A stretch of 34,525 nt of DNA from Hyphomonadaceae bacterium (GTDB taxonomy: Bacteria > Pseudomonadota > Alphaproteobacteria > Caulobacterales > Maricaulaceae), in assembly GCA_013001295.1 (NCBI GenBank), contig JABDMW010000054.1, positions 1 to 34,525 of the forward strand, written 5' to 3'. Both the position numbers and the translations under genes were made by a program. The notes below the pieces were generated by a model. The model was not told where the DNA came from. It saw nothing but the letters and a program-made list of their open reading frames with translations, and did not search any database. This document shows positions 4,246-34,525 of this stretch, one piece after another; position 1 is the stretch's first letter, and each line of letters opens with the position of its first letter.

Positions 4246-5655
4246 ATGAATAAATTGAAACTTCATAAGAAGCGGCTTTTTCCGTCTGATCCCATCCAAA
4301 GGAGTATTGCGAACGATCTTTTTGCGTCGGTTGAAGATTTACCAATAATTAGCCCGCACGGTCATACTGATCCCCGATGGTTTGCCGAAAACGAGCATTT
4401 TATAAACCCTACCGAGTTGTTGTTGGCGCCTGATCATTATTTGTTCAGAATGTTATACAGTCAGGGGATTTCACTTGATGATTTAGGTGTGGCTTCATTG
4501 TCCGGCCCTTCAAAAGCTGACCCTCGGGACGCATGGCGGCTTTTTTCCAAGCATTATCATCTTTTTAGAGGGACCCCGTCGCGTCTTTGGCTGGATCATA
4601 CTTTTGCGACGGTATTTGATCTGGACGTAAGACTTTGTGAAGAGACAGCTGATCATTATTTTGATGTCATCAGCGAGGCGCTTTCTCGAGAAAAGTTTCG
4701 TCCCAGGGCGCTATTCGATAAATTTAATATCGAACTTCTTGCTACAACAGAAGGTGCAACTGATAAACTCGCGCATCACAACCAAATCGTTCAATCTGAA
4801 TGGGGAGGGCGCGTCATATCGACTTATCGCCCTGACGCTGTTGTAGATCCAGACCATGAAGGATTTCAACAAGAACTCGATTTGTTTGGCGAAATAACAG
4901 GAGAAAATACGCGCAATTGGAACGGCTATCTTAACGCGCACCGTAAAAGACGGCAGGATTTTATTGCGATTGGCACCACGTCGTCCGATCATGGTCATTT
5001 GCGAGCTACGACGGCCAATCTCTCGACAGTTGAAGCTCAGGAGCTTTTTGAAAAAGTAATTCGGGGGGAAATATCAGCTTCGGAGTCTGATGTTTTCAGA
5101 GGACAGATGCTGACAGAAATGGCTGGAATGAGTCTCGACGACGGGCTTGTCATGCAGATTCACCCGGGCGCAATACGAAATCACAATTCTCATATATTCA
5201 ATACTTACGGCAGAGACAAAGGGGCTGATTTGCCGAGTGCAATTGATTATGTAGACGCGCTCAAGCCACTATTGGATAAGTTTGGAGACGACAATCGCTT
5301 ATCTATAATTCTTTTTACGTTGGACGAGACGACATATTCTCGTGAACTTGCGCCGTTGGCCGGTCATTACCCGGCGTTGAAACTTGGTCCTGCCTGGTGG
5401 TTTCATGATAGCCCGGAAGGCATGCGCCGTTTTAGAGAGCAAACAACGGAAACTGCGGGTTTCTACAATACCGTAGGTTTCAACGATGATACGCGGGCCT
5501 TTTTATCTATTCCCGCCCGGCATGATGTAGCACGGCGCGTGGACTGCGCATTTCTTGCCAAATTAGTAGCAGAACATAGGCTGGAAGAAGATGAGGCTTT
5601 CGAAATTGCGAAAGGCCTCGCTTACGATTTCGCTAAAAAAGCATATAAAGTTTAG
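4246..5655 (+). CDS. uxaC: Uronate isomerase (glucuronate/galacturonate isomerase)
   Basis: A cytoplasmic enzyme of 469 residues, the normal length for UxaC. It converts D-glucuronate to D-fructuronate (or galacturonate to tagaturonate). The N-terminal ISPHGHTDPRWFAEN carries the HxH metal-ligand pair of the amidohydrolase-type barrel. Other family landmarks are LLLAPDHYLFRMLYSQG, a lengthy central HPGAIRNHN stretch, LGPAWWFHDSPEGMRRFREQ and the C-terminal TDDTRAFLSI-like segment GFNDDTRAFLSIPARHD. The ATG at 4246 has GAGGGAA 7 nt upstream. uxuB follows 68 bases downstream, which fits a two-gene glucuronate unit. The CRP-like palindrome just upstream suggests control by sugar state. In this locus its substrate is most simply glucuronate released from the polymer. 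Confidence 0.93.
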   Translation: MNKLKLHKKRLFPSDPIQRSIANDLFASVEDLPIISPHGHTDPRWFAENEHFINPTELLLAPDHYLFRMLYSQGISLDDLGVASLSGPSKADPRDAWRLFSKHYHLFRGTPSRLWLDHTFATVFDLDVRLCEETADHYFDVISEALSREKFRPRALFDKFNIELLATTEGATDKLAHHNQIVQSEWGGRVISTYRPDAVVDPDHEGFQQELDLFGEITGENTRNWNGYLNAHRKRRQDFIAIGTTSSDHGHLRATTANLSTVEAQELFEKVIRGEISASESDVFRGQMLTEMAGMSLDDGLVMQIHPGAIRNHNSHIFNTYGRDKGADLPSAIDYVDALKPLLDKFGDDNRLSIILFTLDETTYSRELAPLAGHYPALKLGPAWWFHDSPEGMRRFREQTTETAGFYNTVGFNDDTRAFLSIPARHDVARRVDCAFLAKLVAEHRLEEDEAFEIAKGLAYDFAKKAYKV

Positions 5656-5723
5656 GATCTGTGGAAGAAAAGCCTGACAATGTGAGTAGTCGTAACAAGT
5701 CCGCAATTGTTGGAGGTTTTTGA

Positions 5724-7160
5724 ATGGCTGTTTCGCGATTAAATAAGCTCGGTCCGAAATCGTCGACGTTGAAATATGACCGCAATTCCATCACATTAGG
5801 GGTGTTACATATTGGGCCTGGGGCTTTTCACCGTGCCCATCAAGCCGTTTATTTTGATGATCTACTGGCCCGCGATCCAGGCTGGGGCATACATGCTGTT
5901 TCCATGAGAAGTGAAACACTGAAACAGCGGCTGTCCCCGCAAGATGGGCTATACACGTTGGCGGTTCTCGATCGTGAAGTAAGCTACCAACTCGTCGGGA
6001 GCTTATTAAAGATTTCGACCGCAGAAGACGGTGCATGGAAAGATAGTTTTTTGTCTGAGGACTTAAAACTAATCACGTTAACGGTAACGGAAAAAGGATA
6101 CTGCTTGGACTCACGTGGACATCTAAACTTCGACAATTCGGATATCATCGCGGATTTGTCGGATGGAAGCCGACCCAAAAGCGTTATTGGGATGCTCACC
6201 TACGGCTTGCAGATACGTTATGCGGAAAACCTCCCGCCGCCCATAATTATTTCTTGTGATAACCTCCCGGAAAATGGCGTGAAACTTAAAAATGCCGTTG
6301 TCACATTTTCGGCTCGAATTGATAGGAACCTCTCAAAATGGATAGAATCTTCCGTCGCATTCCCTTGTTCCATGGTCGATGCAATTACGCCCGCGACAGA
6401 TGAAAAATTGATAGCTCAAGTCGAAAAAGATGTGGGCTTCGCGGATGCATGGCCAGTTCAGAGGGAGGTATATTCTGACTGGATTATTGAACAAACCGGA
6501 GAAAACGATCTGTCAGTTTTGCAAGATTTGGGTGTAACTATTACAAGCAATCTGGAGAATTTTGAACAAGCCAAATTGAGATTGTTAAATGGAGCGCATA
6601 GTTGCTTAACATATATCGGATTAGCGAGGGGTTACGACACCGTCTATGATGCTATGAATGACAGCGAAGTGAATTCAAAAATACAGAGTTTATTGCGCCG
6701 GGAAATCAAGCCGGTCTTAAAATCGACTAAGGATTTGGATTTAGATTTGTATGTGGAAAATTTACTAAACCGGTTTTCTAATCCGGCTATCTCACATTTT
6801 TTATCTCAGATTGCTTGGGATGGATCGATAAAACTTCCTATTAGAATCCTCGAGACTCTTTTTGAAAACTTGAAAGTTGGCAGGCCGTCGCCAATTCTTT
6901 TCTTAGGAGTTGCGGCATGGATGCGTTTTATCAGGCGGAGTGTACGTGCAGAAAAGCCAATCGTAGACCCGGAATCAATAAGACTTATCCGGATCGGGCA
7001 CGAGTGCTGTGACAAAGGACATGTCGACGTACAAAAATTTCTATCTATGGATTTTGTATTCTCAGCACAATTGGTTGGTCACCCGAATATTGAATCAGAA
7101 TTAGTCAAAGGTTATGATCATATAATGCGAATGGAGGAGCAGTTCGGCGTAACCGTGTGA
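5724..7160 (+). CDS. uxuB: Mannitol dehydrogenase-family oxidoreductase, probable fructuronate reductase
   Basis: A 478-residue NAD(H)-dependent polyol dehydrogenase. The Rossmann entry LGVLHIGPGAFHRAHQAVYFDDLL is at residues 27-50, followed by SMVDAITPATD near residue 215, DWIIEQ, and KLRLLNGAHSCLTYIG near residue 288. These match the long-chain mannitol dehydrogenase family, to which UxuB (fructuronate to mannonate) and UxaB (tagaturonate to altronate) also belong. Position right after uxaC, with its own strong ribosome site GGAGG at suitable spacing, makes fructuronate reductase the best call. Mannitol dehydrogenase is the main alternative and motif reading alone does not exclude it. The next step, mannonate dehydratase (UxuA), is not in the window. 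Confidence 0.8.
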   Translation: MAVSRLNKLGPKSSTLKYDRNSITLGVLHIGPGAFHRAHQAVYFDDLLARDPGWGIHAVSMRSETLKQRLSPQDGLYTLAVLDREVSYQLVGSLLKISTAEDGAWKDSFLSEDLKLITLTVTEKGYCLDSRGHLNFDNSDIIADLSDGSRPKSVIGMLTYGLQIRYAENLPPPIIISCDNLPENGVKLKNAVVTFSARIDRNLSKWIESSVAFPCSMVDAITPATDEKLIAQVEKDVGFADAWPVQREVYSDWIIEQTGENDLSVLQDLGVTITSNLENFEQAKLRLLNGAHSCLTYIGLARGYDTVYDAMNDSEVNSKIQSLLRREIKPVLKSTKDLDLDLYVENLLNRFSNPAISHFLSQIAWDGSIKLPIRILETLFENLKVGRPSPILFLGVAAWMRFIRRSVRAEKPIVDPESIRLIRIGHECCDKGHVDVQKFLSMDFVFSAQLVGHPNIESELVKGYDHIMRMEEQFGVTV

Positions 7161-7503: not shown

Positions 7504-10500
7504 ATGAAAGTATCTAGAAACCGGGTTTATAAGACGTCCGCGTCGGTAATTGCATTGACCGCCCTTACAGGGCTGATCAACACGGCAAATGCGCAAACTG
7601 CGCAACCGCCAGAAGAAATTATCGTAACGGGTATTCGTCAATCTTTGGCCAGTGCCATTGCCGAGAAACGTTCTGCCGATAACCTTATTGAGGTCATTAA
7701 AGCGGAAGACATTGGTAAGTTGCCTGACCAAAACCTCGCTGAAGTGCTCGAAAATATCACAGGTATCCAAATCACACGGACAGCAGGCGTGGGTTCAGGC
7801 GTACAGATTCGGGGTACTGACTCAAACCGGACTGAAATTAACGGTGTTTCAACTGTCGGTTCAGGGTTTGGCCGTACGGGTATTAGCTTTGAAGATATAC
7901 CAGCATCTCTCATTTCATCGGTTGAAGTTACGAAAGTGCCGGAAGCCAAAACGATTGAAGGCTCGGTCGGCGGTACAATCAATCTTGAAACACTCCGTCC
8001 TTTAGACCTTGATGAACGTGTGATGGCCTTCCGTGCTCAGGTCGAGCAAAGCGACCTTGCCGACACCGTGACGCCGCGCGTTTCAGGAACGATTGGGAAA
8101 AAGTGGACCAACCCTAAGGGCCAAGAAATGGGCGTTGTCCTAAGTGGTAGCTATGCTAAGCAAGATGTTGCATTTTTCAATCCGCGCGCAGACCGCGACA
8201 ATGTAACGGTGGCGAACGATCCAGCTTTCGCAAGCTCAACGGATTTCGACTATTTGCGTATTCAATTCTTCCAACAAAATTACGACAATTTTGAATATGA
8301 AACGATAAACTTGAATGGTACATTTGAGTATTCTCCAAATGACAATACGCGGTTTTATGTTGACGGGATTTACAACGATCAAGAGCGCGCACAAGAAAGC
8401 TATGTGCTCGACTTATCTGGTGTGTCAAACGGTGGTGTCGTCAGCGGGACCGATTACACTGGCTTCGAAACTATCAATTTTGGTGAAATTGACGGGCCTG
8501 ATGGGCCGATCGACCTCGGCTCCGTAGAAGCCGCGCTATCCGGTACTCTTTTCCCGACAACCTCGGGCGGTCTTGATCCGAACTTTCGGGTTTCAACGTC
8601 AACCGGTGCGCGGGTCACAAAAAGTTCGGTTGTTTCGGCAGGTCTCGATTTTGCTAAAAATCGCCTAAGCGGCACGATTGAAGCTTCGACGTCAAACTCG
8701 GCAACAGAATCTCCGCAATTCCGTCCTCGCTTAGAATTTATCAACCCGAATACCACACAGCCCATTCCTGGTGGCTCAGGCAATGCGGATAATGGTGTTC
8801 CGGTGGTTTTTGACTTGAGTAATGACACACTGCAATTTGGCTTCGCGCAAGGCGTTACCTCTTCACCGTCAACGGAGGATTTACTTAATCCGGCAAATTA
8901 CCAGCTTGGACGTCTGACGTTCACGAATAGTATGGCGGACAACCGCGAATCTGCGGCACGCCTTGATTTCAATTACGATATGGAAGACGCGTTATCTTTT
9001 ATAACGTCTATCGATGCCGGTTATCGTTATAATGAAACGACATCGGAGCGGAACAGCTCGCTTTCCAGCGTCAATTATGGGAATGACCGTAATCGGCCAT
9101 CCGCTGATCAGTTTGCAAACGTCATTATCGCGGGACCTGATAATTTTGATGCAGCCGACGATCGAGATCTGTTCATCCGCGATTATCTGGCTGTAGATCC
9201 TGAGCTTGCCTTTGAAAATCCGCAGGCTATCGTGGATGCCTTCAACCAGGCAATTATAGCAAATAATGCTGATCCAAATCTCATTGGGCGCCAACTTCCA
9301 TTGGTTCAAACACCATCGGAAACTACAAGCGCGTTCTTTAATATCTCAGAAAAGACGCACGCCTTATATGCTCAAGCCAACTTTGATGGTAGCGCATCTG
9401 GTATGCCTGTTCGCGGCAATCTCGGGCTACGTTGGATTGATACGACGATTAATTCCGTCGGCAATACAGTCACCCAGGGAAATGTCACTCAGACTGAAAC
9501 CAGTGCGTCATACGATTTCTTTTTGCCGCGATTTAACGTGGTCGCGAATGCAACAGATGACATCTTACTACGCGGCGGTATTGCCCGCGATATCCGACGT
9601 CCTGGATTTACCAATCTGTCGACATCAATCAACTTTGGGACCGGCTCGAACACGGTTGTCCCTTTAGGCAATCCAGGCCTGGTTCCTGAAAGTGTCTGGT
9701 CGTATGACCTGTCTGCCGAGTATTATTTCTCGCCGTCTAGCTTGATTAGTGTCGGTTTGTTCCACAAAAGCCGGACAAACCTGTTTACTGATCTTCAGGA
9801 AGATCCTCCTGGAAATCCGGATCCAGCTACAGGAGTTTTGAACATTGACGTGACACCTCCTTGTGAACAGGGTGGTATTTTCAATCCGATTGCAGATCGT
9901 AATATTAACAGCCCAATTCCAGGTGTTGGTATTTGTGTTCCATTCAGGACCCAAGTCAATGGCGAAGGCACCTTTACCCAAACAGGTATTGAACTTGCTG
10001 CTCAGTTTGATCTTTCATCCTTTGAAGACAGACTTGGCTGGGCGTCTGGGTTTGGTTTTATCGGAAACTATACATATCAGAACCCGGGCGGAAGCGCACA
10101 GGACTTCGCGTCAAACTTCCGTCGGATTGGCGGCAATCGGAATATCTTTGGAAGATTAGGTATCGCAAATCCATTGCAGCAGATCGTACAGCCAAACCTG
10201 TCGAAAAATACTTACAACGCAACCGTATTCTACGAAAAGTATGATTTAAGTGCTCGGGCTCGCTATACATGGCGTTCTTCATATAGCCTACCAGCTTCAG
10301 TCGAGTCCTTCAAAGCCGGCGCACCGCTCATTAACGCAGCACGAGGTCAACTCAACGCAAACGTCACTTATGATATCAATGACAATATCTCTGTGGGTGT
10401 TGAAGGGGTCAATATATTGCAAAATGATCAGCAGCAATATTGTGTTAAAGACGGTACATTGCTTTGCTTTAATGGCTTCACAGACCGTCGCCTGATTGCA

Positions 10501-10521
10501 GGGTTGAACGTGAAATTCTAA
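7504..10521 (+). CDS. Large TonB-dependent receptor, Caulobacter type, probable oligosaccharide importer
   Basis: A 1005-residue outer-membrane receptor. Residues 1-27 are a signal peptide (ending NAQ). The TonB box region EEIIVTGIRQSLASAIAEKR is followed by the plug signature RSADNLIEVIKAEDIGKLPDQNLAEVLENITGIQITR, with VQIRGTDSNRTEINGV and a VTKVPEAKTIEGSVGGTINLETLRPLDL close to it. GKLPDxNxAExLxxxxGxxI is characteristic of the Caulobacter-type receptors that dominate carbohydrate uptake in alpha- and gammaproteobacterial PULs. The barrel ends with NVKF. Its position between uxuB and a lyase operon, with no SusD partner (normal outside Bacteroidota), fits import of lyase-made oligosaccharides. 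It has its own long leader and a strong terminator, so it is probably transcribed alone. Confidence 0.93.
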   Translation: MKVSRNRVYKTSASVIALTALTGLINTANAQTAQPPEEIIVTGIRQSLASAIAEKRSADNLIEVIKAEDIGKLPDQNLAEVLENITGIQITRTAGVGSGVQIRGTDSNRTEINGVSTVGSGFGRTGISFEDIPASLISSVEVTKVPEAKTIEGSVGGTINLETLRPLDLDERVMAFRAQVEQSDLADTVTPRVSGTIGKKWTNPKGQEMGVVLSGSYAKQDVAFFNPRADRDNVTVANDPAFASSTDFDYLRIQFFQQNYDNFEYETINLNGTFEYSPNDNTRFYVDGIYNDQERAQESYVLDLSGVSNGGVVSGTDYTGFETINFGEIDGPDGPIDLGSVEAALSGTLFPTTSGGLDPNFRVSTSTGARVTKSSVVSAGLDFAKNRLSGTIEASTSNSATESPQFRPRLEFINPNTTQPIPGGSGNADNGVPVVFDLSNDTLQFGFAQGVTSSPSTEDLLNPANYQLGRLTFTNSMADNRESAARLDFNYDMEDALSFITSIDAGYRYNETTSERNSSLSSVNYGNDRNRPSADQFANVIIAGPDNFDAADDRDLFIRDYLAVDPELAFENPQAIVDAFNQAIIANNADPNLIGRQLPLVQTPSETTSAFFNISEKTHALYAQANFDGSASGMPVRGNLGLRWIDTTINSVGNTVTQGNVTQTETSASYDFFLPRFNVVANATDDILLRGGIARDIRRPGFTNLSTSINFGTGSNTVVPLGNPGLVPESVWSYDLSAEYYFSPSSLISVGLFHKSRTNLFTDLQEDPPGNPDPATGVLNIDVTPPCEQGGIFNPIADRNINSPIPGVGICVPFRTQVNGEGTFTQTGIELAAQFDLSSFEDRLGWASGFGFIGNYTYQNPGGSAQDFASNFRRIGGNRNIFGRLGIANPLQQIVQPNLSKNTYNATVFYEKYDLSARARYTWRSSYSLPASVESFKAGAPLINAARGQLNANVTYDINDNISVGVEGVNILQNDQQQYCVKDGTLLCFNGFTDRRLIAGLNVKF

Positions 10522-10541
10522 TTTAGAATTACAATGAGAAC

Positions 10542-10575
10542 AAAGAGCCCGCTTAGTAAGCGGGCTCTTTTTGTT
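10542..10575 (+). terminator. Rho-independent terminator after the TonB receptor
   Basis: AAAGAGCCCGCTT (10542-10554) and AAGCGGGCTCTTT (10558-10570) form a perfect 13-bp stem with the 3-nt loop AGT. The T-rich tail TTTTTGTTT follows. It lies 21 nt after the receptor stop codon. The opposite strand gives the same stem with a weaker T-run, so it may also stop the converging lyase transcript. Confidence 0.93.
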
Positions 10576-10630: not shown

Positions 10631-12313
10631 TTAAGGTTGAAGCCTTTTGCCGAGCTGATAGTCATAGAGCGAAGGCACATCATTCATTTGGCTATTTGTG
10701 CGCTCCATGTAAGGTGCGGGCACATAATTTATTTTGAAATCTCTGTTCCCATGGACACCGACTACACGGGCGTTAGGACCTTCGGCTGTGCCCCGCAATT
10801 CGACTGTCTCAATCCGGTCGGCGCCACTCAGTACATTGACCTTTAAATTCCAGGTCGTGCTGAAACGGCCATGTCCCGGTTGCCAATACCCAGCTCCGCT
10901 TCCATCCCAGATCGGATAGTAAGGGCCGTTCTTGTCCCGTTTAGCGGCAATGTGAACTGTAACATTATCGAATAGGTTTTGATGATTGGCGCCTGCATGT
11001 TGATCCAGGACAGCCGCCTCATTTACAATCGCATTTTTAAACACGCATTTTGTCGATTGCGTGTTTAAACTTAGGGAGTGAATGGCTGGATTGTTCACCG
11101 TTAAATTTTGCACCAGCATATTGTGAACATTCCCTGCATGAACTGAATAGTGCGCGCGCCTGTCTCCGGTCGTTTCAATATTCGATATCGTCACATTGGC
11201 ACTATTATATGTCAGGATTCCGGTGTCGCCATTGTGAACACTGACATCTCGAACCCAGCCGTTAAATACACTGGTTAAGTAGATTCCATTATAACCGCGT
11301 TCCATATGGTGTCCGAAGTACGGCGAGTTCGGAAACGATAAATGTAGATCTTCGATGCCCACATTTGTGATATGATCCCAGCTTGAAAATTGTGCCGGTA
11401 AATCCTCTGATATATTATGCAAGAGAGGATCGCTGATTGTGACTGTGTTGCCAGATACTGCAAGGATCTCTGTTTTTTGACGGACAAGAGGACGAGTCTT
11501 AAATGTCCAATGATGCGAGCCAACCTTAAGATCTGTATCTCCATACATTTCTTTGATTAACGCGCCGCCTTCGCCTTGGCGGTTAAACCATTGTAGTTCC
11601 AGCACATCACCAACATTCAATTTTTGCGCAGTGTCGACAGTGACAGTTTGCGTTCCGACTTTCCCGCGTAAGGCTTGAGCAATCGCTATGATTTCGGGGT
11701 CTTCGCTCTCAAGATAAGAAGCGGCGCGCGTGCCTTCTTTTTGAATCCAGATGAACCCACCGCTCCAGGAGTATTCGGAGAAGAGTACATCAATATTTTT
11801 GTCTTTCGGCCGATGGCGTTTATCGTATTTTTTCAAATATCGTCTGAGCTCATCTAAGGAGTCTGTTTTGTCGATCATTTCGAGAGGACGGGGGAAATGA
11901 AGATTCGTACCGTCGGCGCCTGATCCAGCTCCTCGTAGAACAATATCACTTCGCTGAATTTTTAAAATTTCTGAGATAATTATTTTACCCTTGGGAAGTT
12001 GAACAACCACCGGGCTTTTTGAATTGTGAGCCTCCTTGAGCGCCTTAAGCATAGCAATAGAGTCGTCGATCTCGTCATCTGCGGTCACGCCATATTTCGT
12101 GACGTCAATAACTTTCCCTTTCAAAACAGGAATGTCCTCCATGCCGTGTTTATATCCAGCATAAGAAAAGTCAGGGAGGTAATGTTGATCAATAACGTCT
12201 TGGTCGGTTAAAATTTTAATTGGCACTTGGTCGTGGGCAGCGGCGAAGAGCGGAATAGTCGAGGCAGTTAGAATGCCTATCAGGCTCATTGTTTTTCTGG
12301 AAAATCTTTTCAT
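10631..12313 (-). CDS. Secreted right-handed beta-helix protein, possible polysaccharide lyase or hydrolase of unassigned family
   Basis: A 560-residue exported protein with a signal peptide ending AAA-H at about residue 27. VIDVTKYGVTADDEIDDSIAMLKALKEAH at about residues 48-76 is the typical opening of pectate_lyase_3/GH28-like beta-helices (D-V-x-x-x-G-x-x-x-D-G/D-x-x-D-D-x-x-A). After it, runs with N-V-x-I-x-N spacing (IEDLHLSFPNS, VRDVSVHNG, VTISNIETTG, MLVQNLTVNN, CVFKNAIVNE, NLFDNVTVH) read as successive helix coils. The central HHMERGYNGIYL and HAGANHQN stretches are rich in His and charged residues and could form the active site. It starts 18 nt after the PL25-like lyase gene with AGAGG before its ATG, so the two are co-transcribed. 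I do not recognise a named CAZy family. Lyase, rhamnogalacturonase-like hydrolase and a dehydratase-type role are all open. Confidence 0.72.
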   Translation of the reverse strand: MKRFSRKTMSLIGILTASTIPLFAAAHDQVPIKILTDQDVIDQHYLPDFSYAGYKHGMEDIPVLKGKVIDVTKYGVTADDEIDDSIAMLKALKEAHNSKSPVVVQLPKGKIIISEILKIQRSDIVLRGAGSGADGTNLHFPRPLEMIDKTDSLDELRRYLKKYDKRHRPKDKNIDVLFSEYSWSGGFIWIQKEGTRAASYLESEDPEIIAIAQALRGKVGTQTVTVDTAQKLNVGDVLELQWFNRQGEGGALIKEMYGDTDLKVGSHHWTFKTRPLVRQKTEILAVSGNTVTISDPLLHNISEDLPAQFSSWDHITNVGIEDLHLSFPNSPYFGHHMERGYNGIYLTSVFNGWVRDVSVHNGDTGILTYNSANVTISNIETTGDRRAHYSVHAGNVHNMLVQNLTVNNPAIHSLSLNTQSTKCVFKNAIVNEAAVLDQHAGANHQNLFDNVTVHIAAKRDKNGPYYPIWDGSGAGYWQPGHGRFSTTWNLKVNVLSGADRIETVELRGTAEGPNARVVGVHGNRDFKINYVPAPYMERTNSQMNDVPSLYDYQLGKRLQP

Positions 12314-12331
12314 TTAAACCTCTATTATTCT

Positions 12332-25256: not shown

Positions 25257-25376
25257 GTGGTAGGCTGCTATGCTAGTCAAAGGTGAGTGAGCCGTAATCT
25301 TGTCTTTAAGCTTTCTCTTTCGTTCCTTCGCGTTTCTTACAACTCCTTTGTGCGCACTGTTCAAAGGGGTTTTGAC

Positions 25377-27278: not shown

Positions 27279-28028
27279 TTAGTTTAATTGGCTGGCCAAC
27301 ATGAAACGAGATCGTTTTTCGGACAGTTTTCTCTCAACTTCCATAAAAGCTTCCTTTTCCGAAGTTTCAATTAAGGCTTCAATGATGCGATTGAAGTGTT
27401 CTCGCATTGCAAGGCGGGCACCGGCAGGATCTCGGTTTTTCAAAGCATTCAAAATTGAACTGTGTTCGTCATCCAGATGGCTAGGATCGTGATCGCAAAC
27501 CGTTCTATAGACTTTTTGCAATTCTTTGTTCTCATTTCGAATTTTCCACATGCTTTTGACAACATAAAAAATCATGTGATTATTTGTTGCGCGCGCTATC
27601 GCAAGATGAAACGCGGCGTCGGCATCATCAACAGTCATATCGTATTGTTCATTTCCGGCCATGATCGCGATATACTTCTCTAGTTCGGAAATAGTTTCAC
27701 TTGTAATAATTGGCGCCGCCAGAGCAGCTGCCTCGGCTTCGAACAATGCACGTGCTTCTGTTAATTCCAAAGGCGTAACATTGGGCAGATTTGGCGCCAA
27801 CTGTCCCAATGGCTCTAGAATATAAGCGCCCGAACTTGCCTTGAGGTCAAGATATCCGAGCGCTTGAAGTGCTATTTTAGCGTCGCGGATCGATGCTCGA
27901 CCCACACCCAAATTTTGCGACAGTTGTTTCTCGCTTGGTAGTCTACTGCCCAAGGGAAAAACACCTGTTTCGATTAGTTCGAGAATTCGAACAGCAACCT
28001 TTTGATAGGAATGATCAGCAGTATTCAT
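27279..28028 (-). CDS. GntR-family transcriptional regulator with FCD domain
   Basis: 249 residues from the ATG at 28028 (a TTG two codons earlier is the alternative). The N-terminal winged helix is clear: KVAVRILELIETGVFPLGSRLPSEKQLSQNLGVGRASIRDAKIALQALGYLDLKASSGAYI. The C-terminal alpha-helical FCD domain has the metal/ligand residues expected of the FadR group: DADAAFHLAIARATNNHM, DEHSSILNAL and AMREHFNRI. UxuR, ExuR, KdgR-like and many sugar-acid repressors belong here, and their ligands are uronates or their catabolic products. It is the last gene of the minus-strand operon, 30 nt after GH105, so it may regulate its own operon and the others. ATACA-TTC-TGTAT at 13842 is a possible binding site. 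Ligand and sites are inference. Confidence 0.9.
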   Translation of the reverse strand: MNTADHSYQKVAVRILELIETGVFPLGSRLPSEKQLSQNLGVGRASIRDAKIALQALGYLDLKASSGAYILEPLGQLAPNLPNVTPLELTEARALFEAEAAALAAPIITSETISELEKYIAIMAGNEQYDMTVDDADAAFHLAIARATNNHMIFYVVKSMWKIRNENKELQKVYRTVCDHDPSHLDDEHSSILNALKNRDPAGARLAMREHFNRIIEALIETSEKEAFMEVERKLSEKRSRFMLASQLN

Positions 28029-28058
28029 TGACAATGACTCTGGTTTCGTGCGTCGGTT

Positions 28059-29252
28059 CTATTTCATTCTCTTTTCCGCATCGATCATTTCTGATGACAT
28101 TAGGAGGAAGCCGCCAACACCGTAAAGCTGAGAGCTGTCTTTTACAGTAAGCTGTGGGTCTTTCCCAATTTGTTGAACCCAACCCACCATGCCATTCGGC
28201 TGCACGGCATTTTTCATTGCCGTCCAGGCTTTATCGCGCGCATTCACATGACTAGCATCAGTCAAAAGTCCTTGATTAATACCCCAGGCCAAGCCAAAGC
28301 CGAAAAATGCGGTGCCGCTTGTTTCTGGGTTTGTAAATAGAGCTGCATCATCTAAAGACGTGGGCCAGTATCCGTCGTCTCGTTGTCGGGAGATCAGGGC
28401 GTTGGACATTGAGACAAAAAGTTTTTCATACCGAGGTCGGGCAGGATGTCCTGCCGGCAACGTTTCTATGAAGCGTGCTAGACCGGCATATACCCAACCG
28501 TTTCCGCGGCTCCACATGACTTTACCGCCGTTTTTAGTCTTGCGCTCGAAATATCGACTGTCGCGGAAAAATAAGCCTGTTTCGTCGTCATATAAATAAT
28601 CAATAGTTGCGTCAATTTCTTCGATTGCATATCGGCGGTATTTTTCGTTCCCTGTAACATTGCTTACGGCCGACCAAGCGGGCGGTGCCATAAAAATCGC
28701 ATCTGCCCAACACCAGCGCGTTTGACAGGTGCCCTCTGCTCCAGCTTCACCGGGTTTTGGTTCGACGAATTCCAGGCTTACCGTTGAACGGTCTTTGATA
28801 ATGTGGTCCATTTTTTCAAGCGTTGGACGCAATTGTTCTACAGGGACTCTGGAATCTCGTTCAATTACACCCGCGTAAATAGTGCCGAAAATTTGATCAT
28901 CTCCGTGCCAATAGCGTTCCCCTAGCTCGAACCCGTTTTCGTAAGATTCATTTCGCAATAGATCGAGGTATTCTTGATTTTGAGTTTTTTCCGCAAATCT
29001 TTCGAGACCGATATAAAACGCACCTTTTACCCAGCCGCGATTATATGAACTCTGTGGGATTTTATTGGGAAGATATGAAAGATCATCAATCGTTGCTAAT
29101 TGCCATCTCGCGGCAGCTTCTCCGTAACTTACAGCGTCCGTCATTGCCATTTGGCTAACGGTGTCCGCAGGCGTAAAGGATTGGGTTGCGCAAGCCGTAA
29201 GCGTGGTGGCTAGCATTGATGAAACTAAAAGTGTTTTAAATAATTTTGACAT
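28059..29252 (-). CDS. GH105-family unsaturated uronyl hydrolase lipoprotein
   Basis: 397 residues with a lipoprotein signal (LTACA, Cys21). It is predicted to hydrate and release the 4,5-unsaturated uronate left at the non-reducing end by lyases, which then opens to 5-keto-4-deoxyuronate for KduI. The (alpha/alpha)6-barrel features are RGWVKGAFYIGLERFAEKT, YWHGDDQIFG (Asp118/119), RWCWADAIFMAPPAW (Asp184, the probable acid) and MWSRGNGWVYAGLARFIETLP, all typical of GH105 rather than GH88. AGGAG lies about 7 nt before the ATG. It sits 12 nt after the BNR_4 lyase gene in a tight operon, giving a lyase-then-hydrolase order. Members act on rhamnogalacturonan or ulvan; sulfatases nearby favour ulvan. 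Confidence 0.92.
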   Translation of the reverse strand: MSKLFKTLLVSSMLATTLTACATQSFTPADTVSQMAMTDAVSYGEAAARWQLATIDDLSYLPNKIPQSSYNRGWVKGAFYIGLERFAEKTQNQEYLDLLRNESYENGFELGERYWHGDDQIFGTIYAGVIERDSRVPVEQLRPTLEKMDHIIKDRSTVSLEFVEPKPGEAGAEGTCQTRWCWADAIFMAPPAWSAVSNVTGNEKYRRYAIEEIDATIDYLYDDETGLFFRDSRYFERKTKNGGKVMWSRGNGWVYAGLARFIETLPAGHPARPRYEKLFVSMSNALISRQRDDGYWPTSLDDAALFTNPETSGTAFFGFGLAWGINQGLLTDASHVNARDKAWTAMKNAVQPNGMVGWVQQIGKDPQLTVKDSSQLYGVGGFLLMSSEMIDAEKRMK

Positions 29253-29264
29253 GGGAGGCTCCTG

Positions 29265-30665
29265 TTATTGAGGTATACGGTGCACGCGAAGAGTGGATGC
29301 TGGCGGTATGTTTTCCCGCGCTTGATCACGGTTGGGCTGCATGGCTTCCCAACTCAGATAGAATTCTGATGATTTACGGGTCTGATCCTCCATCATGGGG
29401 ATAACACGCAACGGGATCTCATTTTTTATGTCAAATTGTGTAATCGCATCAGACAAACCAGATTTGACTTCACCACCTGAAATTACCGACAAATTATCAT
29501 GATCAAGGATCCATTCCCAGCGCTTGTCTCGCAACAGTGCGGAGACTACAATATTGCCATTTGAATTGACGGAGGCTGGATCATTGGTCAGCAAGGGAAG
29601 GTCCAATGCACCGCTTTTATCCAAATCGACATAAAGGTCATCCCAATTTGACACCTGTTTAACGACCCACTTATCGTTTTCGCGCCTGGCGATATATACT
29701 TGAGACAGGTTTTTATTATTGTATTTTTGGTAGCTGACCAGGACCCGATTTTGAGAGTCGAATCCAATCGGATGACGTCCATTTAAGAGACCGCCATGTT
29801 CGGGGATAGGGTCAATGATATCACCCGTTCCCAACACAATGGGGAGTGAAATGGGTGTTCCGTCAGCACGCTCCCATTCTATTAAATCGCGGCTGCGTGC
29901 ATATGACAAATCATGATTAGAAGATGCGATGGGCGTTTCTCGCCAAGTAAATGTCATGTGGGCATATCCGTCTGGTCCCAATACGGGGCCCAGCGGGTAA
30001 ACACCGCGTACATCTTCACCGGATAACAAAACAGTTTCATGCAGATGCGACCACTTATTCGTATCGGCGTCCCAACGATTATAAAACCACCGTCCTTGTC
30101 CTGATGAGCCGTCTCGGTATTTAAAAATTAATCCACCGTCAGGGTCTTGGAAAAACTCTGGATAAGTCATACGTTGTTCCACTGAACTTTTGACCATCAT
30201 GTCAACTTGTTCGAGTGTGCGCGGGTCATAGGGAGAACTAGAACGGAAATACACAAGTTTATTGGTATGTAGATTGCCGACCAGATGAATGACGCCGTTT
30301 TTATCAAACGCCACTTCAACCTTGTTGTGTGCGTCCCATCCAAGCCAACTTGGTACCTTGTGGTAACTCCAAGGCGCACCATTGACATCGTTCATTTTAC
30401 GCACAGCTACGCTCATCTGCCGAGAGGCGTCATAATAAGCGATCATCTGGTAATTGTTCTGTTCGACAAAATCGAACCACACCCGTTGTCCGGCCCAGAC
30501 GTGGTCAATGGCTTCATTGAGCGGTCGCGCGACATTGGTTTCTTGCGCGGATACGCTAGTTGATTTTACATTCTCTGAGGTGGTAGCGCTGGGCGGCGTA
30601 GTGGTCGATGCTTGACACGCAGTTAGGCAAATTAACGATGCTCCAAAATATAAGTAATTCATCAT
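29265..30665 (-). CDS. BNR_4 propeller lipoprotein, probable PL24-like ulvan lyase
   Basis: 466 residues with a lipoprotein signal (CLTAC, Cys17). After a low-complexity Ser/Thr linker, WAGQRVWFDFVEQNNYQMIAYYDASRQMSVAVRK begins the propeller. WLGWDAHNKVEVAFDKNGVIHLVGNLHTNKLVYFRSS (residues 107-143) is the hallmark of BNR_4 proteins, with paired histidines at 113, 127 and 133. Later blades read GPDGYAHMTFTWRET and FDSQNRVLVSYQKYNN. PL24 ulvan lyases are seven-bladed propellers with a His-pair active site and this architecture. It is not closely similar to the PL25-like proteins in this window, so the locus would hold two lyase types. Other BNR_4 proteins are uncharacterised, which is the main doubt. 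It lies between a sulfatase and GH105 with gaps of 11 and 12 nt. Confidence 0.7.
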   Translation of the reverse strand: MMNYLYFGASLICLTACQASTTTPPSATTSENVKSTSVSAQETNVARPLNEAIDHVWAGQRVWFDFVEQNNYQMIAYYDASRQMSVAVRKMNDVNGAPWSYHKVPSWLGWDAHNKVEVAFDKNGVIHLVGNLHTNKLVYFRSSSPYDPRTLEQVDMMVKSSVEQRMTYPEFFQDPDGGLIFKYRDGSSGQGRWFYNRWDADTNKWSHLHETVLLSGEDVRGVYPLGPVLGPDGYAHMTFTWRETPIASSNHDLSYARSRDLIEWERADGTPISLPIVLGTGDIIDPIPEHGGLLNGRHPIGFDSQNRVLVSYQKYNNKNLSQVYIARRENDKWVVKQVSNWDDLYVDLDKSGALDLPLLTNDPASVNSNGNIVVSALLRDKRWEWILDHDNLSVISGGEVKSGLSDAITQFDIKNEIPLRVIPMMEDQTRKSSEFYLSWEAMQPNRDQARENIPPASTLRVHRIPQ

Positions 30666-30676
30666 CGACTAACTCG

Positions 30677-32143
30677 CTAATCGCGCAATTGTTGGTCGAA
30701 CATTGCGGTAAATTCTTGGGCAATTTCGGGAAATTGCGCGGCTAGGTTCTGACTTTCGGATTTATCATCAATGATATTGTAGAGCTCGATATCAGAGTCC
30801 TCGGTTAATCTGACGACTTTCCAGTCTCCACGTCTCGCAGCTTGCTTAACGGTTCCAATTACACCGGAATTTGGATCGCCCAGCTGTTGAGCAAATTCCC
30901 AGTAGAGCACGCGCTCAGCCAACTCGGCATCAGGATTGACGAGGATAGGGAGCACAGATGTTCCGTTAGGATCCAGCCCTACCATAGCGGTTTGCGGCGC
31001 ATCTACCAGATCCGCAAGAGTCGGCAGGACATCAGCGAATGCCATGGGCGTATCGCTGATGCGCCCGCCTTCGATTTTGGCCGGCCAATGTGCAATCAAA
31101 GGCACGTGTATGCCCCCATCATAGAGGTCGCGCTTCCCGCCGCGATAAGGGCCTGATGCGCGGATTTCGATGGGGTCGGCACCGCCTTCTTCATGTGGCC
31201 CGTTGTCTGATGAGAAAAATACGATGGTGTTTTCCGCCAAGCCTTGGGCTTCCAGAGCCGACATAACTTCGCCGACATAATGGTCAAGCGCAGTGACCAT
31301 GCCGGCCTGTGTCGCAGTGGGTTCCGACACGGGCTTAGGATAGTAATCTGCAAATTTTGGCTTGTTGTCCGGGTCTGACAATCCCGGGTAATTTACCTCA
31401 TCAAACTTGCCGGAATAGGGCTCAACGAATTCCTGAGGTGCGGCCAGTTCTGCGTGGGGTGAAGTATAAGACAAAAATACAAAGAACGGATTAGTTTCAT
31501 CCTGTTCGCTAATGTAATCAATAGCCGCGTCCGTAAATAATTCCTGCGCATAAGCACCTTCGGCTCCAGCCACATTGGGGGAAACAAATTCCATATCATT
31601 GTCACGGAATATCATCGTCGGGTATTGGCGGTGAGCTGTAATATTATGGAGCAAGCCATACCAATTCTGAAACCCCATCGCCATGGGATCGGTCTTGCCA
31701 AACGTCGAGCCGATGCCAAATTTTCCGAACAAGGCCGTCTTGTAACCCGCGCCGCTCATCATATGCGCGAGCGTTTTGTCTTCTGGCCGCAGCTTAATGG
31801 TATTGGCATTGGAGTGTAGTTTACCCACATCCTTGCCAGTCATAAGTGAAATGCGGGACGGTGAACACACTGTGCTGCCGGCATAGGCTTGCGTAAACAA
31901 AATTCCGTTTTCCGCCAGCTTATCAATATTCGGGGTCTTGATGATCGGGTGTCCTGTCACCCCGAGTTGCCCATATCCTAAATCATCAACCAGGATAAAC
32001 AATATATTGGGAGAACCGGCTTTCGCTGAGATTGATTCAGCAATGGGCGGGCTGTGATCCGCTTGACTGGTTTCAACTGAGCAGGCTCCGAAAGCGAGCA
32101 GTGGTAACGCTAAAACGGTATTGGTGAATGTTTTAAGAGTCAT
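30677..32143 (-). CDS. Family S1 arylsulfatase-type lipoprotein
   Basis: 488 residues from the ATG at 32143 (AGGAAA 6-7 nt upstream; a TTG five codons earlier lacks this). LAFGAC is a probable lipobox. The S1 core is complete: NILFILVDDLGYGQLG with the metal Asp53/Asp54, STVCSPSRISLMTG with Cys93 for formylglycine, YTSPHAELAAP, IVFFSSDNGPHEEGG and the GPYRGGKRDLYDGGIHVPLIAHWP stretch. The last 100 residues form the usual small C-terminal domain. Unlike the sulfatase at 25377 it has the standard Asp-Asp pair and the arylsulfatase A-like middle, so the two should attack different sulfate positions. It is second in the minus-strand operon, after the NCS1-type permease. Confidence 0.92.
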   Translation of the reverse strand: MTLKTFTNTVLALPLLAFGACSVETSQADHSPPIAESISAKAGSPNILFILVDDLGYGQLGVTGHPIIKTPNIDKLAENGILFTQAYAGSTVCSPSRISLMTGKDVGKLHSNANTIKLRPEDKTLAHMMSGAGYKTALFGKFGIGSTFGKTDPMAMGFQNWYGLLHNITAHRQYPTMIFRDNDMEFVSPNVAGAEGAYAQELFTDAAIDYISEQDETNPFFVFLSYTSPHAELAAPQEFVEPYSGKFDEVNYPGLSDPDNKPKFADYYPKPVSEPTATQAGMVTALDHYVGEVMSALEAQGLAENTIVFFSSDNGPHEEGGADPIEIRASGPYRGGKRDLYDGGIHVPLIAHWPAKIEGGRISDTPMAFADVLPTLADLVDAPQTAMVGLDPNGTSVLPILVNPDAELAERVLYWEFAQQLGDPNSGVIGTVKQAARRGDWKVVRLTEDSDIELYNIIDDKSESQNLAAQFPEIAQEFTAMFDQQLRD

Positions 32144-32163
32144 AAACGTTTCCTGCAAATAAT

Positions 32164-33822
32164 TTAGTTTGCATCTTCGGCTCTATCTTTATGAATAAAA
32201 ACCAGGGTAATTGCGGCGGCGAAATATATTAAAGTCGGCAGAATTATCGCTGTTTTGAACGCGCCGGGATATGCGTCGCCCGAGCTCTTGAAACCAAGGT
32301 AAAATCCAACAAGCAAAGCGATTGCGGCGATTGCCAAAAGAGCTGTCTCCAGGGGAGGGCGACGCACGCCCTTCGCAATCTTAAGCGTGGCGATGAATTT
32401 CGCCTCGTCGCGTTTTCTCTCTATTTCCGCCTGCTCCATCTCAGTCAGTGTTTGAGATTCCGCCGATTTGGCGCCCATAAAGTATGCCAGCAATACATAC
32501 AGAACCATGGCAATGATCCAGGTTGGTATGAACAAAAAGAAAATATGGATTTTGAAAATGGTGCCCAAACCATAAGCGCATAGTGCAGATAGGAACCAGG
32601 TTAATGTCGCAGGGACGTTCAGTTTGTTTCCACGCCCAATTCGCCAATAACGGGTGAGGCCTAAGGGTCTAAATAGGTAATGTTCTGCGAAAATTATCGC
32701 TCCGATAGGCGCCATTATCACGGCCATGATACCGAGGAAGCCGAGCAGTTGTGAAAACACGAAGGGCGAGCAGGCTATGACAGCGGTAATAATGCCTACA
32801 ACCCACGTTACGCTTTCACGAGACCATTTCGGGTTTAATGACTGAAAAGCCAGGCCGGCGCGATAAATCGTTGGGTTTGACGTCGTCCAGCCGGCAATCA
32901 CAACGGCCAAAATACCGACGGCACCAAGCGCTTGATATGCCACGCCACCCGCATCTAGCTCAGTCAACGGTGTGTTTAAAATACTTGCCGCACCAGCACC
33001 CATGATTCCAGCCGCTATCCATGCAGCGAAATGACCGATGAACATACCCAGTGAAGAATACCAGCCATAGGCTTTGTTCTTTGCAAATCTTAAAATCGTC
33101 ATGTCACCCAAGCCACCGTGGAACGCAAGGTTAGCGCCCCATGTAAATGCTATGACATGCCAAACTGTGATTTCAGTACCACGATCTACGAAAACACTTT
33201 TATCAAGCAGGGTCATCAGATCGGACGATGATCCAACTCCCGCGAGATCAGGAGTTGCACTTATTAAAGCCGGAAGTGTCGCGAGTGCACCAATGAAAAA
33301 CATTGAGATCATCCACGGGGCGGCGACTTCGGCAAATTTCGCAACGAATTTAAACCCTTTCACAGCGGCAAATGCGACGACCATCCCGACACTTAAGGCA
33401 ATAAGTATGAACCTGAGGTCTGTCGGAAACAGGCCTGTCTGTGGGTCCAAACCAAACAGTATTCTGATGGCGCTGGCCGAAACCGTGATCATCGCGCCCG
33501 CTAGAATGCAAAACAAAGCTCCGTTTACGACACTATATATTTTGATGAAATGTGGTCCGGCGATCTTTTCCAAATATGCATAGAGTGTGAGGCGCGTATC
33601 TGTTGCGATTGGCGCACACAATAAAGCCCACGTCAAAACCGCCAATAAGTTGCCGAAGACTAGGCCAACGATAACGTCCATTGCGCCCAGACCAAAGGAT
33701 ACGAATAATGCGCCAATGACAAATTCTGTCCCTGCAACATGTTCGCCAGCATAAGACGCTGCAAAATATTGACCGGATTGCAATGCCTTCGGCGCAACCG
33801 GTGTTCTATCAAATTCGCTCAC
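32164..33822 (-). CDS. NCS1-family (cytosine/purine-type) permease, substrate unknown
   Basis: 552 residues and about 12 membrane helices, beginning with a GTG at 33822 preceded by GGGGA. ALQSGQYFAASYAGEHVAGTEFVIGALFVSFGLGAMDVIVGLVFGNLLAVLTWALLCAPIATDTRLTLYAYLEKIAG is the amino-terminal pattern of the nucleobase:cation symporter-1 family. IAFTWGANLAFHGGLGDMTILRFAKN and VIAGWTTSNPTIYRAGLAFQSL further on are also family-like. A charged cytoplasmic stretch (EMEQAEIERKRDEAKF) precedes two extra C-terminal helices, making it longer than CodB-type proteins. Being first in an operon with a sulfatase, lyase and GH105, it probably imports a sugar or sugar acid rather than a nucleobase; that is inference from context alone. 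Confidence 0.8.
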   Translation of the reverse strand: MSEFDRTPVAPKALQSGQYFAASYAGEHVAGTEFVIGALFVSFGLGAMDVIVGLVFGNLLAVLTWALLCAPIATDTRLTLYAYLEKIAGPHFIKIYSVVNGALFCILAGAMITVSASAIRILFGLDPQTGLFPTDLRFILIALSVGMVVAFAAVKGFKFVAKFAEVAAPWMISMFFIGALATLPALISATPDLAGVGSSSDLMTLLDKSVFVDRGTEITVWHVIAFTWGANLAFHGGLGDMTILRFAKNKAYGWYSSLGMFIGHFAAWIAAGIMGAGAASILNTPLTELDAGGVAYQALGAVGILAVVIAGWTTSNPTIYRAGLAFQSLNPKWSRESVTWVVGIITAVIACSPFVFSQLLGFLGIMAVIMAPIGAIIFAEHYLFRPLGLTRYWRIGRGNKLNVPATLTWFLSALCAYGLGTIFKIHIFFLFIPTWIIAMVLYVLLAYFMGAKSAESQTLTEMEQAEIERKRDEAKFIATLKIAKGVRRPPLETALLAIAAIALLVGFYLGFKSSGDAYPGAFKTAIILPTLIYFAAAITLVFIHKDRAEDAN

Positions 33823-34038
33823 AATTTCCCCGTTATGTTTTTTACATATATCTTCTTACATTATCTTATTTGATTGATAATGCAATATAATGATTGTAAA
33901 TGATTGAAAATTATTTTTTACTTGTGACTTCAACCATTTCGACGCTTTCGTCGTTTGGTGGGCTAACTGGTTTTGATTATGAGCGAGTGCTGCCAGTATG
34001 TCACTAAGTTCCTAGGTTTATGCGTGGAGGTGTCAGGA
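33823..34038. promoter_or_regulatory. Divergent promoter region between the NCS1 operon and the second PL25-like gene
   Basis: A strongly A+T-rich spacer. ATTATC-N10-GATAAT (33860-33881) is an inverted repeat, and ATTGATAATGCAATATAA (33873-33890) matches a stretch at 13828-13845 in 15 of 18 bases. Both lie in spacers flanked by a PL25-like gene, consistent with shared control. GGAGG at 34026-34030 is the ribosome site of the plus-strand gene. Confidence 0.45.
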
Positions 34039-34525
34039 ATGAAAAAAATATTTAGGCTTTTAATTCCAAACTTGCTGATATTGTTTTCAGCGTGCTCAAC
34101 TGACAACGTAACCCGCGATGAAGTCACAACTTATTTCTCTGAAAATGGATTTGGGGAAGGGGTGGCAGTTGTGCAGCACCCTGCCGGTGAGCATATTAAT
34201 GGAATAACGTACGTTGCCTATCAAGGCCCGAATGAGGATCCATACGTCGCTTCATACAACCATGAAACACAAGCTTGGAGCGGTCCTTTTCAAGCTGGAA
34301 CCAGTATACTTGGCAAAGACCCGACGAAGAAAATAGATAGCCATGGCAAGCCCACAATGATTATTGATGATGAGGGCTATATTCACATATTTTACGGCGG
34401 ACATGGCGGCGATAAAACTTTGCATGGTGAGAATCCCTTGGGCGGACATCATTCAGGGGAAAACCGTCACGCCGTTTCGCAGAAGCCCTTTGATATCACG
34501 AACTGGAGGGATCTGAATAATGTGC
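34039..34525 (+). CDS. Second PL25-like ulvan lyase lipoprotein (3' end beyond window)
   Basis: The first 162 codons of a lipoprotein (lipobox LFSAC, Cys19) that is plainly a paralogue of the protein at 12332-13711. Shared stretches include GVAVVQHPAGEH, GITYVAYQGPNEDPYVASYNHET, SHGKPTMIIDDEGYIHIFYG, GHGG, NPLGGHH and the downstream HAVSQKPFDI. The candidate catalytic histidines of the first propeller blades are kept. GGAGG lies 8 nt before the ATG. The frame is open to the window edge, so the gene is cut by the window, not by mutation. It is divergent from the NCS1 operon. Two lyases of one type suggest different polymer regions or locations. Confidence 0.8.
   Translation, partial: MKKIFRLLIPNLLILFSACSTDNVTRDEVTTYFSENGFGEGVAVVQHPAGEHINGITYVAYQGPNEDPYVASYNHETQAWSGPFQAGTSILGKDPTKKIDSHGKPTMIIDDEGYIHIFYGGHGGDKTLHGENPLGGHHSGENRHAVSQKPFDITNWRDLNNV

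Follow-up and report, generated by a model that had tools for sequence, protein, structure and literature searches.

A probable ulvan utilisation locus of a Caulobacterales-like bacterium and signs of an undescribed transporter, possibly for rhamnose

Green seaweeds contain ulvan, a sulfated polysaccharide, in their cell walls, and gene clusters for its digestion are already known in other bacteria. The stretch of DNA analysed here, 34,525 nucleotides of contig C21 and hereafter the window, carries two PL25 ulvan lyase genes. The first, PL25a (12332-13711, minus strand), has a start that by eye resembles that of a lipoprotein, and aligns with PLSV_3936 (PDB 5uam) at E 1.3e-176 across 433 residues, covering the full propeller. 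Its H107, H127, Y172 and R188 correspond to H123, H143, Y188 and R204 of PLSV_3936. The second, PL25b, is represented by its N-terminal part (33973-34525, plus strand), which measures only 184 amino acids because the contig ends there; the gene continues at C11:3-962, and with the two pieces combined all four catalytic residues are present. A quick tree, read on SH-aLRT support only, nests the alphaproteobacterial PL25b within Alteromonadaceae, and Bacteroidota were rejected as its donor; the same tree left the position of PL25a unresolved.

The two parts of the PL25 gene interrupted by the contig ends fit together across C21 and C11. That the two contigs are not neighbours and that the pieces come from two different genes is very improbable, since the pieces cover query residues 9-165 and 169-459 without overlap, are 80% and 82% identical to a single PL25b gene in G193, a genome from another genus of the same family, and the two flanks are joined in G193, where the permease gene found at the end of C21 directly adjoins rhaM, found at the start of C11.

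Five minus-strand genes, separated by gaps of 24, 12, 11 and 5 nt in order from the regulator to the permease, are predicted to form one operon. A 552-aa permease (32164-33822) is its first gene and a GntR/FCD regulator (27279-28034; Pfam) its last, and between them lie an S1 sulfatase (30677-32158), a PL42-like protein (29265-30665) and a GH105 unsaturated uronyl hydrolase (28059-29252). The GH105 is of the ulvan type, its best solved relative being 4ce7, named as an unsaturated 3S-rhamnoglycuronyl hydrolase (E 4.4e-58). The operon sulfatase (Pfam 1.3e-58) matches PDB 7an1 at 9.3e-76 and S1_8 at only 1.2e-21. The sulfatase nearest to S1_8 lies instead on the opposite strand at 25287-27143, matching 9bb9 (S1_8A) at 5.7e-73 in the PDB comparison, with the next non-S1_8 entry at 8.1e-27.

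Beside the two PL25 lyases, an earlier note on this DNA had called a third propeller, the protein at 29265-30665, PL24-like. The PL25 propellers align as proposed, whereas the third aligns with PL42/GH145. The entries for Uly1, a PL24 enzyme, and for Short ulvan lyase match just 43-51 of its residues, at 2.8e-8 or weaker, and PL24 was dropped. The alignment with BT3686 (GH145/PL42; PDB 5muk) has an E of 9.1e-37 over 275 residues, and the NCBIfam BT3686 model gave 2e-49, below the cut-off of that model. The protein keeps the His-His-Tyr-Arg anterior site as H113, H133, Y168 and R184, in a printed alignment that ends before BT3686 Arg333. The accessible part of PMC8377490 gives the FoRham1 counterparts as H85, H105, Y150 and R166, and assigns 6BYT to PL24. 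At the posterior site Q69 stands where hydrolytic GH145 has His48, and none of the 19 homologs aligned has a histidine in that column. His48 is kept in about 70% of GH145 members, and membership without it is allowed. The protein belongs with PL42 (former GH145), and we predict that it acts as an exo L-rhamnose-alpha-1,4-glucuronate lyase.

The likeness to FoRham1, BT3686 and BACCELL_00856 extends to the BNR_4 propeller, the lyase residues and a predicted product suited to GH105. The difference lies in the substrate, which for these characterised enzymes is, in the available portions of the literature, either gum arabic or the side chains of AGPs. Counting against the ulvan reading, PL42 enzymes have been described for rhamnose-capped arabinogalactan proteins, and FoRham1 has only trace activity on ulvan (PMC8377490, accessible part). 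Among the open-access matches listed, no title or abstract opening reports PL42 within ulvan loci. Of the 24 proteobacterial PL25 genomes searched, 23 have a PL42-like protein (E <= 1e-86), as against none of the 15 other PL25 genomes.

Further degradation enzymes are a GH106 alpha-L-rhamnosidase (13911-17228, plus strand; Pfam 6.1e-162) and a GH43 protein, likely a beta-xylosidase (17256-18644, plus strand; Pfam 3.8e-27). Together with GH105 and the two sulfatases these were already named in the earlier note, and all are confirmed. That note had overlooked the permease, the GntR/FCD regulator, the content of C11 and two further proteins. One, a right-handed beta-helix protein (10631-12313, minus strand; PF12708, 8.6e-10), has no match in the PDB or in the G193 region, has relatives at two other loci (L019 and L020; 79% and 52%), and gave a poor AF2 model with pLDDT 43 from three sequences. 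The other is a DUF4861 protein (19694-20701, plus strand; Pfam 4.1e-47) with no PDB match, and the term DUF4861 is absent from the open-access literature searched. A candidate identity as the Formosa dehydratase found no support, the term being absent here too, and was dropped.

Uronate catabolism is encoded by UxaC, a glucuronate isomerase (4246-5655, plus strand; Pfam 5.9e-77), KduD (23614-24381, plus strand; TIGR01832, 346.1 bits, cut-off 338.85) and two KduI proteins (18682-19515, minus strand, 379 bits; 24414-25256, plus strand, 377 bits; NCBIfam cut-off 250 for both), all as the earlier note had them. Its UxuB (5724-7160, plus strand) survives at the level of a UxuB-like reductase of the mannitol dehydrogenase family (Pfam) but not in its specific identity, since fructuronate reductase (254 bits) and D-arabinitol dehydrogenase (252 bits) score alike, both below the NCBIfam cut-off. 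UxuA is present in the same genome. C11 contributes the L-rhamnose pathway, a third sulfatase, a GH3 and a second TonB receptor. RhaI scores 670.8 bits (cut-off 646.75) and RhaD-ALDH 1141.6 bits (cut-off 634). The RhaK-like kinase is named by position, all NCBIfam kinase models falling below cut-off, and a DeoR-like protein is named by eye. Once C11 is included, the gene set of an ulvan locus (ulvan lyase, sulfatases, GH105/GH88, rhamnosidase, xylosidase, rhamnose and uronate catabolism, transport) is all present, so the description of the locus as complete-looking holds for the two contigs but not for the window by itself. Four FGE-sulfatase-domain matches were found in the genome.

For import, the window encodes a TIGR01782-type TonB-dependent receptor (7504-10521, plus strand; 499.7 bits, cut-off 310; 71% in G193) and a TRAP system on the plus strand, comprising DctP (20698-21771; Pfam 3e-76), DctQ (21768-22304; 4e-31) and DctM (22307-23602; 1.7e-118). 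The TRAP system had been recognised correctly, whereas the supposed single receptor has a second of the same type on C11. Pfam gave no SusD in a set of 34 window and C11 proteins, which comprised neither the PL25b part on C11 nor the DeoR-like protein, and the locus lacks a SusC/SusD pair of the Bacteroidota type in this set. The Formosa agariphila ulvan PUL imports via SusC/D. The import logic proposed as different is so in comparison with Bacteroidota, but Alteromonadales ulvan loci already have this arrangement; TonB and TRAP import stand together on plasmid pAlt76 of the ulvan-growing Alteromonas sp. 76-1 (NZ_LR136959.1).

The likeness to pAlt76 covers transport (the permease, TRAP P/Q/M and two TonB receptors), catabolism (KduD, KduI, an FGGY kinase, RhaD, RhaI, RhaM, an alpha-hydroxy acid oxidase and DeoR) and degradation (sulfatases, GH43, GH88-annotated hydrolases, BNR proteins including a PL42-like one, and a protein annotated DUF4861). 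pAlt76 differs in being a gammaproteobacterial plasmid with several annotated alpha-L-rhamnosidases, and UxaC and UxuB are not named in the two stretches viewed, which leave out 50000-76000. Unlike the window, it carries PL24 enzymes according to the accessible part of PMC6431674. The Pseudoalteromonas marina PUA1001 locus, as far as PMC13050008 is accessible, similarly combines TonB and TRAP import, PL25, GH105, GH43 and rhamnose genes, but has PL24 and PL40 and names MFS carriers for rhamnose, and neither PL42 nor a CodB-like permease was found in that text. The Formosa PUL shares the logic of lyase, GH105, sulfatase and rhamnosidase, but is from Bacteroidota and has PL28 and PLnc lyases, GH78 and the dehydratase P29_PDnc (PMC8511951, accessible part). 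Among the open-access matches listed, titles and abstract openings gave no dedicated description of an alphaproteobacterial ulvan locus; in their accessible parts, PMC9676036 gives counts of CAZymes for green-algal material among Alphaproteobacteria, and PMC10233909 deals with Ulva epiphytes including Erythrobacter.

The host rpoB shares 84-87% identity with two Caulobacterales MAGs over partial genes, 67-68% with four Sphingomonadales and 58% with two Alteromonadaceae. On these identities we place the host with Caulobacterales, in line with the alphaproteobacterial origin proposed earlier. PL25 loci are also carried by the cultured relatives Pontixanthobacter rizhaonensis RZ02 and Aurantiacibacter marinus KCTC 23554. 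G193 holds a largely syntenic locus of ~55 kb (C1:764-819 kb) with most of the gene order kept. Since two of the 299 genomes in the order have PL25 and this gene order is repeated in another genus, the locus is more than a chance assembly. The window and C11 were searched for a repeat of the tRNA-Ser end on the right-hand side, and none of at least 12 bases was found; G193 has two, 13 and 12 bases long. We consider it highly probable that the window and C11 form a proteobacterial-type ulvan utilisation locus of ~50 kb across two contigs. This reading draws on gene content, residues, synteny and co-occurrence, from which activity, substrate, location and transcription are predicted.

It is possible to ask whether ulvan is only a secondary substrate and the locus targets another sulfated rhamnose-uronate glycan, such as rhamnan sulfate, a sulfated arabinogalactan protein or some other glycan of green algae. 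Bacteroides plebeius breaks down sulfated AGPs with the participation of a GH145 (PL42) lyase, a GH105 and a sulfatase of type S1_8 (PMC8406133, accessible part), and the window has the same kinds, its S1_8-type gene standing outside the PL42 operon; moreover, the G164 genome, in which PL25 found no match, encodes the permease along with sulfatases, KduD and an RpiB-like gene. However, the presence of two PL25 genes, both with their catalytic residues complete, the 4ce7-like GH105, the encoding of both uronate and rhamnose catabolism, the match to pAlt76 and the tracking of PL25 by PL42 among the Proteobacteria searched make such a target unlikely. The assignment to ulvan is well supported by the PL25 residues, the ulvan-type GH105, the S1_8-type sulfatase, the rhamnose pathway on the adjoining contig and the pAlt76 gene set, and with this substrate the host would be marine.

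Sequence comparison with Pfam, NCBIfam and the PDB gave no match for the permease (up to E 10 nothing but Spore_YhaL, 0.13), and no NCS1 Pfam family matched up to E 10. Given its 13 hydrophobic segments, a reading as an enzyme was rejected. A structure model of modest quality (pLDDT 62, five sequences) gave CodB as best Foldseek match (E 7.1e-8, TM-score by target 0.75), with Mhp1 at rank 13 and other LeuT-fold carriers between them. The fold may be LeuT-type, near that of the NCS1 carriers CodB and Mhp1, from which the permease differs in its lack of an NCS1 match and its rhamnose gene context. It was found in 32 of 39 PL25 genomes searched (E <= 1e-88). Within the order it occurs in 6 of 299 genomes, all six RhaI-positive, against 21 of 299 with RhaI overall (hypergeometric 5.8e-8, or 1.2e-5 without the two PL25 genomes; the genomes are not independent).

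Could its cargo be something other than L-rhamnose, namely a nucleobase or nucleoside, L-lactate or a rhamnose-uronate disaccharide? Three of ten plasmid records annotate it as 'nucleoside transporter', its nearest solved fold is a cytosine carrier, LldD is a frequent neighbour, and RhaT, present in 13 of 43 genomes, co-occurs with the permease in 10 of these, so that the two are not exclusive genome-wide. The Sphingomonadales short loci, where DctM and DUF4861 are the neighbours (7 of 7), and three of the 20 permease regions fetched, which show no rhamnose kinase, isomerase or aldolase and in one case LldD only, also speak against rhamnose. In its favour, the other 17 regions have rhamnose enzymes near the permease, the 20 including no Sphingomonadales; all six permease genomes of the order have RhaI, and RhaI lies immediately beside the permease in 8 of 10 short loci from Gammaproteobacteria. 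Relatives with RhaI but no permease hold nine MFS carriers and one RhaT among ten carriers scanned in their rhamnose regions. No RhaT was matched in the host genome, G193 or seven Sphingomonadales genomes, and no RhaS in the host genome or G193. We regard another cargo as possible, though somewhat doubtful. The accessible open-access literature yielded nothing on the permease as a rhamnose or nucleoside carrier, and from its context we predict a new family of L-rhamnose permeases.

In the degradation that we propose, the two PL25 lyases would cleave ulvan by beta-elimination, as their conserved residues suggest, and the two TonB receptors would take in oligosaccharides. In the periplasm, the products of the predicted operon may work as a loop: GH105 would first take off the unsaturated uronate, the sulfatase would desulfate the exposed rhamnose-3-sulfate, and the PL42-like exo-lyase would eliminate free L-rhamnose, creating a new unsaturated uronate for GH105. 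That the operon sulfatase is not of the S1_8 type counts against this loop. GH106, GH43 and GH3 would deal with leftover rhamnose and xylose. The TRAP system may import uronates or unsaturated uronate, and the CodB-like permease L-rhamnose. KduI/KduD and UxaC, the UxuB-like protein and UxuA would turn uronates into KDG, and RhaM, RhaI, the RhaK-like kinase, RhaD-ALDH and LldD would turn rhamnose into central intermediates, with the GntR/FCD and DeoR-like proteins as probable regulators. We give roughly an even chance to the proposal in full, that the permease founds an undescribed family of CodB-like-fold L-rhamnose importers, which occurs in ulvan degraders from three groups of bacteria and goes under the annotations 'nucleoside transporter' or 'hypothetical protein', and that its proteobacterial members receive their rhamnose from a loop of PL42 exo-lyase, GH105 and sulfatase stripping ulvan oligosaccharides residue by residue without hydrolysis of rhamnosyl bonds.

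These observations would add Caulobacterales, and with them Sphingomonadales, to the groups equipped for ulvan, and the history of one lyase points to exchange with Alteromonadales, not Bacteroidota. Two conserved parts of proteobacterial ulvan loci gain testable functions, the PL42 enzyme and an inner-membrane carrier that may be a rhamnose importer.

Judged from its genes, the locus is an ulvan locus of a known type, in a host group for which we saw no description of such loci in the open-access literature searched. All window genes in 4246-34525 were scanned against Pfam and some also against NCBIfam. Of the earlier note's list, the two PL25 lyases, the two sulfatases, GH43, GH105, GH106, the TRAP system, UxaC, KduD and both KduI are upheld. 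For the first PL25 enzyme (PL25a, 12332-13711) the match to solved members of the family reaches 1.3e-176, and its H107, H127, Y172 and R188 are the counterparts of PLSV_3936 H123, H143, Y188 and R204, as named in an excerpt of PMC8377490. The GH105 protein is closest to 4ce7, titled unsaturated 3S-rhamnoglycuronyl hydrolase. A beta-helix protein (10631-12313) adjoins PL25a and weakly matches the BT3328 hyaluronate lyase model (9e-28, scoring 96.9 bits where the cut-off is 1100); it is possibly a further lyase. A DUF4861 protein (19694-20701), with a weak resemblance to the BT3233 model, was found repeatedly in alpha- and gammaproteobacterial ulvan loci; the term DUF4861 was absent from the open-access papers searched.

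A single TonB receptor with a TRAP system had been read as a different import logic. The TRAP system stands, but a second receptor lies on C11, the contig taken to continue the window contig C21, and the logic is not new. Plasmid pAlt76 of Alteromonas sp. 76-1, a strain that grows on ulvan according to part of PMC6431674, likewise encodes TonB receptors, a TRAP system, a copy of the permease discussed below, KduD/KduI and a rhamnose set, and P. marina also combines TonB with TRAP (excerpt of PMC13050008). The combination is therefore already known from Proteobacteria, and occurs here in Alphaproteobacteria.

C21, 34,525 bases of a 3.49 Mb assembly in 59 contigs, ends within a gene. The first 184 residues of the second lyase, PL25b (33973-34525), close it, and C11 (18,834 bases) opens with a piece matching PL25a residues 169-459. 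C11 contributes RhaM, RhaI, RhaD-ALDH, an FGGY kinase and an FMN-dependent (LldD-like) dehydrogenase, along with the second TonB receptor, a third sulfatase, a GH3 and a DUF1501/DUF1800 pair; one further gene was judged DeoR-like by eye. In G193, from another genus of the family, one chromosome has most of this gene order over ~55 kb, with the permease gene directly beside rhaM, as abutment of C21 and C11 would predict. There PL25b and the S1_8-type sulfatase are placed at the far end of the locus. No match to UxaC, UxuB, KduI or the beta-helix gene appeared within the 100 kb of G193 examined; the KduI place is filled by an RpiB/LacAB-family isomerase (L013:4465-5118), also found beside KduD in two other loci (L020, L024). 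It is comparable to the KduI alternative in an excerpt of PMC12838403, and is possibly a DhuI-type replacement. A C-terminal PL25b piece near the G193 tRNA (L012 584-865, C1:764583-764864), with whole PL25b at the opposite locus end, is a sign of rearrangement. The host's DUF1501/DUF1800 pair lies at L006:4820-7359, and six Sphingomonadales loci (L016, L017, L018, L023, L024, L065) have a more distantly related pair after PL25.

In both genera the locus begins just past tRNA-Ser(GCT) (window 3632-3722; G193 L012 35-125), and the downstream stretch TGTTCCCACTTTTGTTCCCACTT is common to both. Window GC is 0.515 over 1-3000, then 0.45-0.49, and the locus has the appearance of a tRNA-associated island. 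The tRNA end has a 13-base copy in G193 at L015:14787, and none of at least 12 bases in the window or C11. By rpoB identity the host groups with two Caulobacterales MAGs (84-87%). Of 299 genomes of the order, 2 have PL25; the three other same-genus genomes listed all lack it. A scan across genome contigs found 75 PL25 loci; going by record titles, 14 come from Alphaproteobacteria (9 Sphingomonadales, 5 Caulobacterales), 15 from Gammaproteobacteria and most of the remainder from Bacteroidota. A quick tree of 79 rows, one very long row (a second L063 protein) retained, places the alphaproteobacterial PL25b copies inside Alteromonadaceae (SH-aLRT 99-100), and PL25a of the host and G193 forms a separate pair of unsure placement.

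The propeller protein at 29265-30665 had been called PL24-like. It is PL42-like, matching BT3686 at 9.1e-37 over 275 residues; short ulvan lyases align over only 43-51, and the PL24 call was dropped. PL42 is the name that CAZy was due to give GH145, according to part of PMC8377490. The lyase residues are kept in this protein and in 19 homologs (L092-L110). At the posterior hydrolase position this protein has Q, and the homologs have Q, R or K. The alignment also took in four pAlt76 rows, one clearly PL42-like. Matches to the protein at E <= 1e-86 were found in 23 of the 24 PL25 genomes from Proteobacteria (the one in G307 is a partial gene); the 15 others had none, their top match being 2.2e-19. 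The GH105, PL42-like, sulfatase (30677-32158) and permease genes share a strand and are separated by 12, 11 and 5 bases, which suggests a loop: the sulfatase would desulfate, the PL42-like enzyme would eliminate rhamnose, and the new unsaturated uronate would be removed before the cycle repeats. Sulfated AGP breakdown in B. plebeius involves a PL42 enzyme, a GH105 and an S1_8 sulfatase (excerpt of PMC8406133). The sulfatase of this run is not S1_8 type; the S1_8-type sulfatase sits at 25287.

The permease (552 residues, 32164-33822, minus strand) has no Pfam match (up to E <= 10 only Spore_YhaL, 0.13), no NCBIfam match and no PDB sequence match. The nearest Foldseek match to its AF2 model (five sequences; pLDDT 62, pTM 0.64) is CodB, at 7.1e-8. 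Of ten PLSDB records, five annotate it as 'hypothetical protein', three as 'nucleoside transporter' and one as 'membrane protein'; one gives no label. Homologs occur at E <= 1e-88 in 32 of 39 PL25 genomes (the G331 match contains two in-frame stops), with one weak match (G310) and six genomes without. Six of 299 genomes of the order have it, all among the 21 that are RhaI-positive (one of these, G114, matches weakly).

Among 20 regions extracted around the permease, none from Sphingomonadales, 17 encode RhaI, RhaD or RhaK, one LldD only and two none of these; the 17 include G164, G060 and G120, genomes with no PL25 match. In the seven short Sphingomonadales loci it is flanked by DctM and DUF4861. 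RhaI regions were also taken from 15 other genomes, 14 lacking the permease and G167 carrying it on a separate contig; 14 of the 15 encode a protein with at least six hydrophobic segments (15 proteins in total), and the ten scanned, none from G167, are six MFS_2, three other MFS and one RhaT. In the stretches of the host, G193, G164, G060 and G120 that were covered, the only such proteins are DctM, the permease and two large unlabelled ones. RhaT occurs in 13 of 43 genomes searched, the host, G193 and the Sphingomonadales not among them; ten of the 13 also carry the permease, so the two are not mutually exclusive genome-wide. RhaS gave no match above cut-off in 20 genomes. The permease is most simply read as a candidate L-rhamnose importer, and it and the PL42-like enzyme are two conserved, unassigned parts of the locus worth testing.
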